A program made the translations under genes and the position numbers. 64,000 bases of DNA from Paenibacillus terrae (GTDB taxonomy: Bacteria > Bacillota > Bacilli > Paenibacillales > Paenibacillaceae), in the NCBI RefSeq assembly GCF_005217525.1, contig NZ_PNXQ01000018.1, positions 92,924 to 156,923 of the forward strand, given 5' to 3'. The notes under the pieces are model-generated. The model saw only the letters and a list, made by a program, of their open reading frames with translations, was not told the DNA's origin and did not search any database. Below, piece after piece: positions 6,188-39,196 of this stretch (the first letter of the stretch is position 1; the number at the start of each line of letters is the position of its first letter).

Positions 6188-7843
6188 TCAGGACAGCCTG
6201 CGGTTATCCATCTGAAACATGTCGTCCGCAATCCGCATGGTGGAGCTTCGGTGGGAAACAAGGACAATCGTTTTATCCTGCTGCTGTTCCTTTAACGATT
6301 TTAAAATGATCGCTTCGTTCAGGCTGTCCAAATTGCTGGTAGGCTCATCGAGCAGCAGGAGCGGAGCATCATGAACCAAGGCTCTGGCCAGCCCCAGCCG
6401 CTGACGTTCACCACCGGACAGCCTGTCCCCCAATTCTCCGACACGGCTGTCATATCCTTGAGGCAAGGTCATAATAAAATCATGCACCGACGCCCTGCGG
6501 GCTGCTTCCACAACCTGCTCATGCGTAGCATCAGGTTTTCCAATTTTAATATTGGCCGCAATCGTATCATCAAACAGGAACGTATCCTGATCCACATAGC
6601 TTTGCAGACCTCTCAAATGCTTCGTTCCGATTTCTTTCAAATCATGTCCAGAGAACAATATCCCGCCCTGCTGTGGGTCCCTGAATCGCATCAACAGCTT
6701 GAGCAAAGTGGACTTGCCAGAGCCGCTTTTACCCTGAATACCTGTAATCCGCTTGTGCGGTATCGTGAGACTTACATCATCCAACACCGTCTGGCCCTCA
6801 TATGCAAAAGTTACCTTGTCTACCTTCGCCCCGGAAAAGGCAACGCTCATTCCCCCGATATTTTCCTCGACCTCCGGGGTTTCCTCCAGCAGACTCAGTA
6901 CGCGTTCCCCGCTCGCCAGCGTTTGCAGCAGATTGTTGGACAAATTGCTAAGCGCAACTACCGGGCCAAACGAGCTAAACAGGGCAATGACGGAAATAAG
7001 CATCCCTGTAAAGCTGACTTGCCCCTTGGACATACCATACAATCCAGCCAGCAGCATCAGAAATGAAAATCCCACGACCGCCGCATCCGTTATCGCCCTT
7101 GTAATGCCTTCATGATGCTTCAAGCTCTTCTGCTTGGCATCCAATTGATCCGTGCGACGGTTAATCTCAGACAGTCGCTGTTCTCCGCGCCCGTATTGCA
7201 CAATTTCCTTCATACCACGCAGGCTGTCCAGAAAATAACTGCTCAGCTTGCCGAAGCTGCTCCGGTATTCCATGCCCTGACGTCTGCCCATACGCGAGGT
7301 TAGCAGAGGAATAAACAGGCCGACTGTGATGTAAGCAAGCGCAGCGAGCCAACCTAATAGAGGCTCATAAGAACCGATAAAGAATACCATTAGCAGTGAA
7401 ATGATGATGCCGATCATAACAGGCGCTATCGTGTGTGCATAAAACACTTCCAGCAGCTCAATATCACTCGTAATCAGCGAGATCAGATTTCCTTTGTCCT
7501 TGCCTTCGAGCTTGGCTGGCGCCAGTCTGCGCAGGGCTTGAAGCACCTTGTCACGCAGCACAGCCAGCAGTTTGAAGGCGAGGTAATGACCACTCATTTG
7601 CTCGCCATAACGGAACACCCCACGCAGTACAGCACAAATCACGATGGCCGTGAGCAGAAACGTCATACTGTAGCCTGTCGTGATGCCCGTTGCTGTAAAC
7701 AGGGCAAGGGCTCCATAGACAATAATGCCAATAGCACAAGCAAATCCAAGCACTCCTGTAACAATCGTTATGAGTAGCACTGGTAAAAGAGGCCCGGCCA
7801 GTACCAGTAATTGGGCCATGATCCGTAATCCGTGTCTACGCAT
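6188..7843 (-). CDS. cydC: ABC exporter, CydC-like subunit
   Basis: A half-transporter of about 551 residues: a transmembrane domain with six predicted helices (~1-310), then an ATPase domain with Walker A GKSGSGKST, signature LSGGERQRLGLARAL and Walker B LLLLDEPTS. CydDC heterodimers export cysteine and glutathione to the cell exterior and are needed for cytochrome bd assembly; more recent work also links them to heme. The ATG at 7843 has GGGGG 8 nt upstream and overlaps the end of the partner gene by 8 nt, so the two are translationally coupled. No cydAB lies beside it. Given the Fur box in front of the pair, an iron- or heme-related substrate is possible. Confidence 0.85.
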   Translation of the reverse strand: MRRHGLRIMAQLLVLAGPLLPVLLITIVTGVLGFACAIGIIVYGALALFTATGITTGYSMTFLLTAIVICAVLRGVFRYGEQMSGHYLAFKLLAVLRDKVLQALRRLAPAKLEGKDKGNLISLITSDIELLEVFYAHTIAPVMIGIIISLLMVFFIGSYEPLLGWLAALAYITVGLFIPLLTSRMGRRQGMEYRSSFGKLSSYFLDSLRGMKEIVQYGRGEQRLSEINRRTDQLDAKQKSLKHHEGITRAITDAAVVGFSFLMLLAGLYGMSKGQVSFTGMLISVIALFSSFGPVVALSNLSNNLLQTLASGERVLSLLEETPEVEENIGGMSVAFSGAKVDKVTFAYEGQTVLDDVSLTIPHKRITGIQGKSGSGKSTLLKLLMRFRDPQQGGILFSGHDLKEIGTKHLRGLQSYVDQDTFLFDDTIAANIKIGKPDATHEQVVEAARRASVHDFIMTLPQGYDSRVGELGDRLSGGERQRLGLARALVHDAPLLLLDEPTSNLDSLNEAIILKSLKEQQQDKTIVLVSHRSSTMRIADDMFQMDNRRLS

Positions 7844-10001
7844 ATACAGCACCCCCTTTTACAAACTGCTCTACCCGGAGTTGACTGAGATACATCTCCG
7901 CATAATGTCCCTGCTGGCTCAACAGCTCATGATGCGTTCCCGATTCTGCCACCAAGCCGTTTTGCAGCACATAAATACGGTCGGATTGGACAACATTTTC
8001 CAGTCTATGCGAGATGAGAATAATGGTTTTTCGGCCTGCCAACGCATGTATAACCTCCATAATACCTTCCTCGCTCTCACTGTCTATGTTAGAGGTAGCC
8101 TCGTCAAAAATGTACACGCTACTATCATGCAGCAGCGCTCTTGCCAGCGCTAGCCGTTGGCGTTGTCCCCCTGACAGGTTGGTTCCCTGCTCCTCCAGCT
8201 CTACTTCCAGCCCTCCCTGTGAGAGAACAAAGTCATACAGCTTCACCTGCCGCAACGCTTCCAGCATTTGTTCCTCATTCGCGTGCTCATTGCCCATTTT
8301 CAAATTAGCTCCGACCGTGCCCTTAAAAATATAGCTGTTGAAGCCGATCCAGGTCATATGCCGCATACGGCTTTCTTCTGAAATGGCGGCAAGCTCGGTT
8401 CCTCCAACGGTCAGACTTCCTTGATAACCCTCATGATGACCAACGATTAATCCGGCTACCGTGCTTTTACCAGAGCCTGATTCCCCGACAATGGAAATGA
8501 AGCTGCCCTGAGGAATATCCATAGATATATTTCGCAGGGTGTCCCTTTCGTCGTAGGCAAAATTCACCTGATCCAGTCGAATATCGGTAGTCTCGATGCT
8601 TTCTTTTCCTTGTACCAGTTCCTCTGTACTCAGAATTTGAAATATTTTGTCACTCGCTGCCATCCCGTTCATGGCGATATGAAAGTAAGAGCCCAGCAGA
8701 CGCAGCGGAATGAAGAACTCCGCCGACAGCAGCACAATGATCAGCGCTCCCGCCAAGCCGATATGACCAGCGGTATATTCGCTCACTGCGACCAGAACAC
8801 CAGCAGCGGCACCGCCAAATGCAATAAGGTCCATGACTGCCACCGAATTAAGCTGCATGGTCAGTACTTTCATGGTCATTTTGCGAAAATCCTCGGCCGC
8901 CGTGTTCATTTCCTGGTGCTTCTGCTGGTCTGTTCCATATATTTTAAGTGTGGTCAGACCCTGTACATTTTCCAAAAAGCTGTGACCCAGATTGACATAG
9001 CTGCCCCAATATTTGCGAAACAGCTTTTTAGCCATCCTCATAATGACTATAATCGACACCGGAATCAGCGGAACGCAGATCAACAGAATAATGGCAGCCT
9101 TGAAGCTGACAAAGGATAGTGTGATGAACAACGTTACGGGTGCAAGCAGACTGTAAAATAGCTGAGGCATGTATCTGCCAAAATAGGTTTCAAGCTGCTC
9201 CACTCCTTCTACAGCAACCTGAATAACCCCCGACGTGGAGGTATGATCCGTATACGCCGGCCCCAGCTTTAGCAGCTTGCCGTAAATTTGCGAGCGCAGC
9301 GTTTTTTTGGCATTCACGGAGGCCCGATAGGACAGCATACTGGCTGCATAATTGCACAAGCATCGGACTGCAATCGCAGCAATAACAATGGCCGTCACAG
9401 ATAGGATCAGCTTACGGGTAACTTGTCCCGCCCATGCCTGCTGCAAAACATAGGACATGGACAAAACAGCGGCTATACTGCCTAAAAGACCAATCCACTG
9501 CACAAGCACGCCCAGAACGATATACTTTCGGGAATGCTCCACCAGACCAAGCAGACGGCTGTCGACCATTTTAGACCTTTTCTTCGTGGTATCAGCAAGC
9601 TCAGCTACAGATGAGCTTGAGGACGGAGTTTCCGCTGTAGTGCCTCTCACCGTTCCGATCCTGAATATAAAGTAATAATATTTGAAGAGGATGACTAACC
9701 CGATAATCACCTTGGCCCACACTGGCGGGGTTAAAATAAAGCCGGTAATGAGCATGGCTGACGCCAATCCCAGAGTCATTACTTTTGTGGACAGCTTCAA
9801 CGATCTTGTTTGGACAAAGCTTTCCAGATGCTTATGGTACAAAGAGGTATTCGAAAACCAATGATGGAGCCGTTCAGACCCCCGCATAAAGAAAAAGGCT
9901 GCCAGCAGCAAAAACGGCGTAGTCGGCAGCAACGGTACCACCACGCCAATGACTCCAAGCGCCAAAAATAGAAACCCTAAGGTAACATAGATCGGTTTCA
10001 C
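7836..10001 (-). CDS. cydD: DUF454 (YbaN-like) fused to CydD-like ABC exporter subunit
   Basis: The protein has 721 residues from GTG 10001 (GGGAGG 6 nt upstream). Residues ~1-115 are a DUF454 membrane domain: GVIGVVVPLLPTTPF, then FFFMRGSERLHHWF and two more hydrophobic segments. A Ser/Thr-rich linker (~120-145) joins it to a complete ABC half-transporter: transmembrane domain ~155-435, then Walker A GESGSGKST, signature LSGGQRQRLALARAL and Walker B VYIFDEATS. The reading frame stays open further upstream, but that extension would translate the Fur box (starting MFILIMIIIIHQMG), so it is rejected. With cydC it forms a heterodimeric exporter. DUF454 proteins have no agreed function; fusion to an exporter suggests an accessory role in the membrane. 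Confidence 0.85.
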   Translation of the reverse strand: MKPIYVTLGFLFLALGVIGVVVPLLPTTPFLLLAAFFFMRGSERLHHWFSNTSLYHKHLESFVQTRSLKLSTKVMTLGLASAMLITGFILTPPVWAKVIIGLVILFKYYYFIFRIGTVRGTTAETPSSSSSVAELADTTKKRSKMVDSRLLGLVEHSRKYIVLGVLVQWIGLLGSIAAVLSMSYVLQQAWAGQVTRKLILSVTAIVIAAIAVRCLCNYAASMLSYRASVNAKKTLRSQIYGKLLKLGPAYTDHTSTSGVIQVAVEGVEQLETYFGRYMPQLFYSLLAPVTLFITLSFVSFKAAIILLICVPLIPVSIIVIMRMAKKLFRKYWGSYVNLGHSFLENVQGLTTLKIYGTDQQKHQEMNTAAEDFRKMTMKVLTMQLNSVAVMDLIAFGGAAAGVLVAVSEYTAGHIGLAGALIIVLLSAEFFIPLRLLGSYFHIAMNGMAASDKIFQILSTEELVQGKESIETTDIRLDQVNFAYDERDTLRNISMDIPQGSFISIVGESGSGKSTVAGLIVGHHEGYQGSLTVGGTELAAISEESRMRHMTWIGFNSYIFKGTVGANLKMGNEHANEEQMLEALRQVKLYDFVLSQGGLEVELEEQGTNLSGGQRQRLALARALLHDSSVYIFDEATSNIDSESEEGIMEVIHALAGRKTIILISHRLENVVQSDRIYVLQNGLVAESGTHHELLSQQGHYAEMYLSQLRVEQFVKGGAVYA

Positions 10002-10043
10002 TGTAATCCTCCCTAAAAAGATATGATGATGACCCATTTGATG

Positions 10044-10062
10044 GATAATGATAATCATTATC
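10044..10062 (-). promoter_or_regulatory. Fur box upstream of cydDC
   Basis: GATAATGATAATCATTATC matches the classical 19-bp Fur consensus at every position and lies 43 nt upstream of the GTG start of the DUF454-CydD gene. The sequence is its own near-reverse complement, as expected for a Fur dimer site. This predicts repression of the exporter when iron is plentiful. Confidence 0.88.
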
Positions 10063-10109
10063 AATATAAACAATTTAGACAGGTTGTTATGTGATGTAAA
10101 TCACGCATA

Positions 10110-38883: not shown

Positions 38884-39196
38884 TTTAAAGGTTCCTTTCG
38901 TAATTCGTACCTTATGATTCATGATTGGTATATGAAATTTTTGCTGCGTAAATCAGCTTATCTATAACCTTGTTAGGGTACCATCGTGCGCGCACAGGGT
39001 CAAATAAGAAGACATTTCCAGACATTTGCCTGGTCTTTGTCCCCTGTTCAAGCTTCCGCCACATAATAAGGACATGATAGCGCTTACCATTGTGAATAAA
39101 ATCACAATTGTAAGACTCAGAGTATCGTACCTTGTTCCTTGTAAGGATTATTTTGCACAGAGTTTACTCGGCTTAGTGCCGTTCGGAGGGAATTAC

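Follow-up and report, generated by a model that had tools for sequence, protein, structure and literature searches.

CydDC, known from Escherichia coli and Mycobacterium (PDB 7ZD5 and the 8IPS series), is a heterodimeric type IV ATP-binding cassette (ABC) transporter; in the E. coli protein, the heme iron is ligated by H85 of CydC and H312 of CydD, while the heme propionates are held by R81 and R136 of CydC (PMC10374445, PMC10691846). Heme enters from the membrane through a lateral gate that includes the elbow helix, TM4 and TM6 of CydD, and the bis-histidine site serves to load an outward pump at the inner leaflet (PMC10374445, PMC10691846). A relative of this transporter is described here from 64,000 nucleotides of the Paenibacillus terrae genome (contig NZ_PNXQ01000018.1, positions 92,924 to 156,923; the window, meaning the whole stretch analysed), in which one gene joins a DUF454 membrane domain to a CydD-like half-transporter (D) and is followed by a gene for a CydC-like partner (C). 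The pair shares with CydDC the type IV heterodimer, the two histidines and a score just above the cut-off of the CydC model, but it differs in its fused or adjacent DUF454, its Fur box, its lack of a tie to cydAB and a score below the cut-off of the CydD model.

Two further described loci invite comparison. The siaD and siaE genes of Streptococcus pyogenes, part of the MtsR-controlled shr-shp-sia operon (siaA to siaH), are listed as a "putative ABC transporter" (PMC6593403). The Cht locus of Clostridium perfringens resembles the present system as an iron-regulated NEAT, sortase and ABC heme locus with a Fur box, but differs in that CydD is not mentioned in the main text, and DUF454 was not encountered in the portions available (PMC5026354).

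The pair is probably a heme-type ABC transporter of an iron-repressed heme-acquisition regulon, with DUF454 as an accessory membrane domain, rather than a device for cytochrome bd assembly; we infer its substrate (heme), its control by Fur in the cell and the role of DUF454 from comparison. The sequence and its motifs, the gene order, the trees, the kept ligands, the neighbourhoods and the lack of cydA in most carriers searched are computational results. That it most likely binds and moves heme follows from the retained bis-histidine site, the Fur box and the heme-capture genes that adjoin it in part of its range. A role in iron or heme homeostasis had been put forward in an earlier note made from the letters of the window, and it is favoured by the axial ligands, by neighbours of the NEAT, Shp and HtsABC types in part of the loci, by Fur-like boxes in some lineages and by the missing cydA of 20 of 26 chosen carrier genomes, all of this support being comparative.

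The fusion operon

The operon comprises the following features.

7836 to 10001, minus strand: gene fusing DUF454 to a CydD-like half-transporter; 721 amino acids, GTG start, AGGGAGG at 10008-10014
9660 to 9995, minus strand: DUF454 (PF04304) domain, residues 3-114; 117.5 bits, above the gathering cut-off of 35.1
7965 to 9530, minus strand: CydD-like half-transporter, residues 158-679; 414.4 bits with TIGR02857, below the cut-off of 435
6188 to 7852, minus strand: CydC-like partner half-transporter, 554 amino acids; start at 7852 (GTG) or 7843 (ATG), overlapping the fusion gene

Pfam divides the fusion protein into DUF454 (3-114), ABC_membrane (163-426) and ABC_tran (489-637). The best-scoring NCBI models are CydD for its transporter part and CydC for the partner, which exceeds the CydC equivalog cut-off (TIGR02868, 329.05) marginally, at 330.4 bits. 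These models and the frames 10001-7836 and 7852/7843-6188 bear out the original reading of the locus as a DUF454-CydD fusion followed by a cydC-like gene. An alternative, longer frame would begin with TTG at 10073 and thus upstream of the Fur box.

Distribution of the module

Of 98 other relatives searched, eight carry the fusion with 87-96% identity and three carry it with 64-66% (loci L017-L027), the match covering residues 1-540 only in one of the eight; it is present in a further Paenibacillus terrae locus (L118), and a more distant version in L089. Across the Bacillota, DUF454 scores above its cut-off in 56 of 398 genomes, mostly as a small separate protein. A D/C pair adjoins it in eight of 40 DUF454 neighbourhoods, fused in L089, L093, L094 and L095 and separate in L098, L101, L105 and L109, with L093-L095 picked because the fusion was already known there.

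A scan with the transmembrane part of D yielded at least 487 confirmed stretches, and the set of 80 loci examined leans to close relatives because it consists of the best 80 of these (at least 595 pattern matches). They come chiefly from Lachnospiraceae and other Clostridia, and also from Paenibacillus, Erysipelothrix and Lancefieldella. Among the 78 with a D frame, C is present in 69, YgbA in 37 and DUF454, at a distance of no more than 3 kb, in 63, in 62 of these on the same strand; beyond Pfam, the labels NEAT, YgbA, DUF454, D and C stand for custom profiles and score rules. Where at least 3 kb is available on both sides, DUF454 is found in 45 of 53 loci and absent from eight. The trio of DUF454, D and C thus recurs, mostly as separate genes, and the same architecture sought in other genomes was found both fused and as separate-gene trios, with upstream Fur-like boxes in some lineages.

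A control profile search of 398 Bacilli gave 16 matches, and ten of these places were examined: five are canonical cydDC genes that adjoin cydAB and lack a DUF454 gene over 17-20 kb, four are SiaDE-type pairs without DUF454, and one (L218) has DUF454 directly before D. As far as sampled, the DUF454 link is a trait of this lineage and not of CydDC at large. At that last place (L218:8927-11073, Bacilli genome G750), the filtered frames held no C partner for the D gene of the family, and in Erysipelothrix (L185:10013-13492) a single 1158-residue frame matching D is long enough for both half-transporters.

Kinship with CydDC, SiaDE and other exporters

A maximum-likelihood tree with 46 rows groups the D proteins of the family with SiaD types (100/100) next to canonical CydD (100/99), the two joining at 100/100, and the C proteins with SiaE types (99/98) next to canonical CydC (100/100), the two joining at 100/99. 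When YbtP, YbtQ and MsbA are added, the joint D and C groups persist (100/99 and 100/98, respectively) and YbtPQ lies outside both; other exporters and MsbA likewise fall outside the CydD and CydC groups, and the exact places of canC, ecD and YbtQ are unsure because of long branches. On these trees, the pair falls in sister clades of canonical CydD and CydC, not inside them.

A fold search with D lists MsbA first and CydD chains second to fourth, with YbtPQ and IrtAB also among the matches. Sequence searches of the PDB returned mostly eukaryotic multidrug pumps; the best bacterial chains were CydD for D (249.4 bits), and SAV1866 and YbtPQ (the latter at 211-225 bits) for C. YbtPQ, a yersiniabactin importer with an exporter fold, is like the present pair an iron-linked type IV ABC heterodimer, but it is set apart by its place in the tree and its lack of an H312 equivalent.

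In four Streptococcus-like genomes, a D/C pair precedes three genes that match siaFGH in size and order, and the name SiaDE was assigned on this layout rather than from S. pyogenes sequences. These four pairs belong to the same D and C clades as the family and share its motif EVF[YF]AHT and both axial histidines, and streptococcal SiaDE appears from these sequences to be its named relative; the two differ in that no DUF454 was found near the four pairs, and in the control by MtsR in S. pyogenes as opposed to Fur. Within the CydDC-like heme transporters, SiaDE would be the named though uncharacterised cousin of this lineage, whose usual partner is DUF454.

The putative heme site

Three codons of the operon, placed by alignment to E. 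coli CydDC, mark the site.

8679 to 8681, minus strand: His441 of the fusion protein, aligned with CydD H312, an axial heme ligand
7586 to 7588, minus strand: His89 of the partner, aligned with CydC H85, an axial heme ligand
7433 to 7435, minus strand: His140 of the partner, aligned with CydC R136, which contacts a propionate; the His in its place is a mark of the clade

The residue equivalent to H85 is His in all 79 C proteins of the family, and that equivalent to H312 is His in all 84 D proteins (83 distinct sequences), a count that is partly pre-selected because one of the two scan patterns contains the D histidine. The same residue is His in 8/8 sequences of a separate D alignment (A1) gathered without that pattern, and both axial histidines occur in the five canonical pairs as well as in the SiaDE types. 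In the H312 column, His is found among 18 other exporters in L028 only, which groups with CydD in the tree, and in none of YbtP, YbtQ and MsbA; by these alignments, it is the two histidines together, not H85 alone, that make the CydDC-like trait. Compared with CydDC, the family has Gln for R81 and His for R136 in C, and Phe for Y311 in D (84/84).

Independence from cytochrome bd

Of the two cydA genes of the source genome, one belongs to an entire cydA-cydB-cydD-cydC operon; this operon is on contig C2, and its CydD scores 552.2 bits with TIGR02857. The second cydAB set lies at C2:54937, with no exporter-sized frame in the surrounding 18 kb. The earlier note had described the fused pair as lacking cydAB, which is true of its neighbourhood only, and had named as fatal to its reading, together with a missing iron response, a cydAB operon elsewhere in the genome that depends on this pair alone; such a dependence is not the case here, since the operon with cydAB carries its own cydDC. 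That operon also rules out the idea that the genome has no CydDC besides the fused pair.

Further afield, cydA was not found in 20 of 26 carrier genomes, a hand-chosen sample (14 from the 80-locus set and 12 others), which means that in most carriers cytochrome bd cannot be what the pair serves. The PF00762 ferrochelatase was not found in 23 of these 26, which is no proof against heme synthesis because three carriers of cydA (G090, G750 and G189) are likewise without a match.

Regulation

Two sites stand before the operon.

10044 to 10062, no strand assigned: Fur box GATAATGATAATCATTATC, an exact 19-mer, 42 bp upstream of the GTG start of the fusion
10090 to 10105, no strand assigned: Fnr-like site TGTGATGTAAATCACG, 27 bp upstream of the Fur box, with one mismatch to the consensus TGTGA-N6-TCACA

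The perfect Fur box first noticed in the window stands up to closer study as an exact match, where a shuffled window gives a mean of 0.03 chance matches with up to three mismatches. In nine polymyxa-like loci (the window and eight related genomes) it is identical at 19/19 positions while its flanks diverge (invariant columns 57/96 upstream and 38/77 downstream), so that it is very probably under selection. Fur-like boxes also occur upstream of the trio in other lineages, namely in L095 (one mismatch to the 19-mer), L109 (three) and L098 (four, a near-perfect palindrome). Within the 80-locus set, a Fur core score of at least 13/14 was reached by 5/77 module operons and 0/788 other genes (Fisher p 5e-6), and a score of at least 12 by 8/77 and 4/788 (Fisher p 1e-6), a comparison that tilts towards the module because its operons were scored as the best of several upstream regions and each control gene over one region.

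The motif TGTGA-N6-TCACA is the Fnr consensus of Bacillus, and the Fnr-like site keeps its single mismatch in all nine loci compared, although the count of such motifs in the window does not exceed chance (two found, 2.0 expected). Perfect copies stand before canonical cydA (L014:9898) and before the NEAT gene of L093 (L093:6291), beside the Fur box of that gene. The operon may be controlled by both iron and low oxygen, and the contrast between iron and oxygen control initially drawn for it is weakened by the conserved Fnr-like site. A perfect Fnr/CRP-like sequence, TGTGAATAAAATCACA, is present elsewhere in the window (39091-39106).

Gene neighbourhoods

In several Clostridia, the order of genes is NEAT (Shr-like), Shp type (PF11545), binding protein (PF01497), FecCD (PF01032), small ATPase and then the module with D and C; the Pfam names of these neighbour groups rest on one representative each, and the label of the small ATPase on its grouping with ABC proteins. 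The full heme-uptake run accompanies D/C in L128, L149, L152, L163, L168 and L187 (the last without DUF454) and a partial one in L122, L125, L141 and L142. Two Paenibacillus genomes with the 64% fusion have the operon between NEAT proteins, and in L093 the NEAT protein before the operon and the first one after it also bear S-layer domains, with YgbA after C. Groups represented by DtxR-type and MarR-type regulators recur near the module.

The source genome has a NEAT-domain cluster of its own at C2:43.4-48.8 kb, with two sets of genes for a binding protein, a FecCD permease and an ATPase flanking it and with Fur-like boxes between the divergent units, which looks like an Isd-type heme uptake locus. 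The second cydAB set, in the stretch C2:46000-64000, is about 6 kb from this cluster.

YgbA_NO, a nitric oxide-responsive protein in E. coli (PMC5320621), recurs in the module (L093:13522-13869, L101:10155-10499 and 37/78 loci in all). Seven cysteines are invariant in 43/43 YgbA-type proteins, which suggests a metal or iron-sulfur protein. DUF454 and YgbA_NO also form a single protein in L075:9854-10546 (PF04304 and PF11756 by Pfam) and in L079:9480-10199 (by custom profiles), a second natural fusion joining two members of the module. In L101, a TspO/MBR protein (9164-9646) directly follows D-C-YgbA-DUF454, and the same genome carries a second DUF454 gene, which has NEAT, Shp, PBP2 and FecCD genes next to it (L102). 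No YgbA_NO gene was found in the source genome, where the fusion is the sole DUF454 gene found.

Proposed function and rival explanations

In the mechanism proposed, the heterodimer would bind heme, or a closely related metal-tetrapyrrole, through its two histidines as CydDC does, and would serve heme handling in iron starvation rather than cytochrome bd assembly. Fur would repress the operon in plentiful iron, and under iron limitation the pair would be made alongside surface heme-capture and heme-import systems, such as the NEAT/Isd-type locus elsewhere in the genome. The N-terminal DUF454 would act as a four-helix accessory membrane domain, in a position like that of TMD0 in other ABC proteins, and is joined just ahead of the elbow helix of D; four membrane passes would leave both of its ends in the cytoplasm. 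Because the elbow helix that it precedes is part of the lateral gate of E. coli CydDC, DUF454 may collect or gate heme there. An AlphaFold model of the domain alone has four long helices (mean predicted local distance difference test 83.2, predicted template modelling score 0.59), and a PDB fold search with this model returned one match only, at an E value of 8, which is no fold match. In a model of the whole fusion the DUF454 part has low confidence (block means 34-60).

Several observations weigh against this reading. The neighbours of the operon in the window resemble, by eye, genes of sugar metabolism, with no adjoining heme gene. Multidrug pumps and YbtPQ head the matches of C in the PDB, with no CydC chain among the best 60 of the 134. 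A His in the H85 column is also present in 9/18 other exporters (one related group) and in YbtP, and the propionate contacts R81 and R136 are replaced by Gln and His in all 79 C proteins, R77 being His in 40 and Arg in 39, so that the substrate or its orientation may differ. No Fur match with up to four mismatches precedes the trio in L089, L101 or L105; in L093 and L094 the fusion has no box immediately in front of it, the box lying about 3 kb upstream, before the NEAT gene, and the intervening sequence contains, by eye, a hairpin-like segment with T residues after it; and 69/77 module operons have a best Fur score of 11 or less, which is no strong box. NEAT genes occur in only 13/26 carriers and 13/78 loci, and are thus a frequent rather than general companion. 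An HtsABC-type importer is already present in many of the operons, which leaves the need for a second transporter unexplained. Lastly, where DUF454 genes stand without D/C, no heme or iron family stands out in the 25 most frequent of 157 Pfam families, a count over 110 neighbours from 29/32 loci that leaves out 18/128 neighbours (all those of L077 and L079, which nearly repeat L076 and L075, every one of L102, and six long or doubtful frames), of which L102 would have favoured the heme reading.

The direction of transport is favoured only slightly as outward, with ATP driving heme from the inner leaflet as a relief valve or as redistribution alongside uptake; this is the default from kinship with CydDC, and import is a serious rival. 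The pair may instead import heme or a metal-tetrapyrrole after surface capture, using an exporter fold as IrtAB and YbtPQ do for siderophores, an appreciable though clearly less probable reading. Fur-controlled ABC transporters are mostly uptake systems, and in several Clostridia the module shares operons with surface proteins of the NEAT and Shp types; some carriers, such as L120 and L184, have the trio without neighbouring HtsABC-type genes, 23 of the 26 carriers yielded no PF00762 match, and the two siderophore importers themselves are among the fold-search matches. Yet HtsABC-type genes already stand in many of the same operons, YbtP and YbtQ belong to neither clade and have no counterpart of H312, and the histidines that are kept form the site at which an outward pump is loaded from the inner leaflet (PMC10374445, PMC10691846).

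Unlikely, though not fanciful, is an exporter of iron-free porphyrin or of a heme breakdown product left after iron removal, with YgbA in the processing step. The changed arginine contacts, the invariant cysteines of YgbA together with its fusion to DUF454 in L075, and the TspO gene beside one trio would suit such a function, but two axial metal ligands are needless for a metal-free substrate, and YgbA was not found in the genome of the window. Equally improbable is a siderophore, thiol or general drug transporter that is iron-regulated by happenstance. It could account for the Fur box, for the CydD and CydC models still being named for thiol export, for the fold shared with MsbA and YbtPQ and for the multidrug pumps at the head of the C search; against it, other exporters, MsbA and YbtPQ lie outside the CydD and CydC groups, and the clade, the ligands and, in part of the loci, the heme-operon neighbours indicate heme. 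The weakest candidate, and a rather implausible one, is a second CydDC for cytochrome bd in iron limitation that serves one cydAB set or backs up the cydDC of cydABDC, a role with which the second cydAB without an exporter-sized frame around it, the Fnr-like site shared with cydA and both axial histidines would agree, but against which stand the distinct sister clade, the 20 of 26 carriers in which cydA was not found, the five canonical cydDC pairs that adjoin cydAB and have no DUF454 nearby, and the changed propionate arginines.

A wider proposal is offered tentatively and is itself rather doubtful: DUF454 and the CydDC-like pair, in many cases with the Cys-rich YgbA, may form a widespread, unrecognised heme-handling machine of the Bacillota, in which DUF454 would hand heme to the lateral gate of the pump, YgbA would be a thiol- or iron-sulfur-based partner that deals with heme iron without oxygen, and the Paenibacillus fusion would reveal the complex. 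Many bearers of this proposed machine are gut anaerobes in which neither cydA nor PF00762 was found. What is at stake is a testable role for DUF454, a family found also in E. coli, and a heme-linked lineage set apart from canonical CydDC, though general models place it nearest CydD and CydC. An overlooked step of heme use is indicated in gut anaerobes and in streptococci, where SiaDE is still "putative", and polymyxa-group Paenibacillus, a soil organism, offers in its single fused gene a convenient handle.

DUF454 in other contexts

That DUF454 is always linked to heme was considered and rejected as a general claim, for lack of recurrent heme-linked neighbours away from D/C; the clue to DUF454 that the earlier note saw in the fusion holds for this module and does not extend to every DUF454 protein. 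E. coli YbaN has the same Pfam domain and its gene belongs to the Fur regulon (PMC7157518, PMC10164565), but ybaN stands alone between priC and apt, with no ABC exporter in the 6 kb examined. DUF454 is upregulated under iron restriction in Avibacterium (PMC7970244), is named among the iron-related genes of Actinobacillus seminis (PMC13167830) and, with heme oxygenase, is among the domains that co-occur with cluster 1 type 11 secretion genes (118/1,111; PMC12282271), and a YbaN protein is mentioned in PMC10213633 and PMC12377095. No publication linking DUF454 to a CydDC-like pair was found in the available portions of the literature searched, a body of text with most subscription journals outside its scope. 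The S. aureus YbaN protein SAOUHSC_00131 is encoded next to isdI. A stand-alone DUF454 gene of Paenibacillaceae (L092:9851-10300) has a strong Fur-like box, GTTGATAATGATTATCAAC, upstream.

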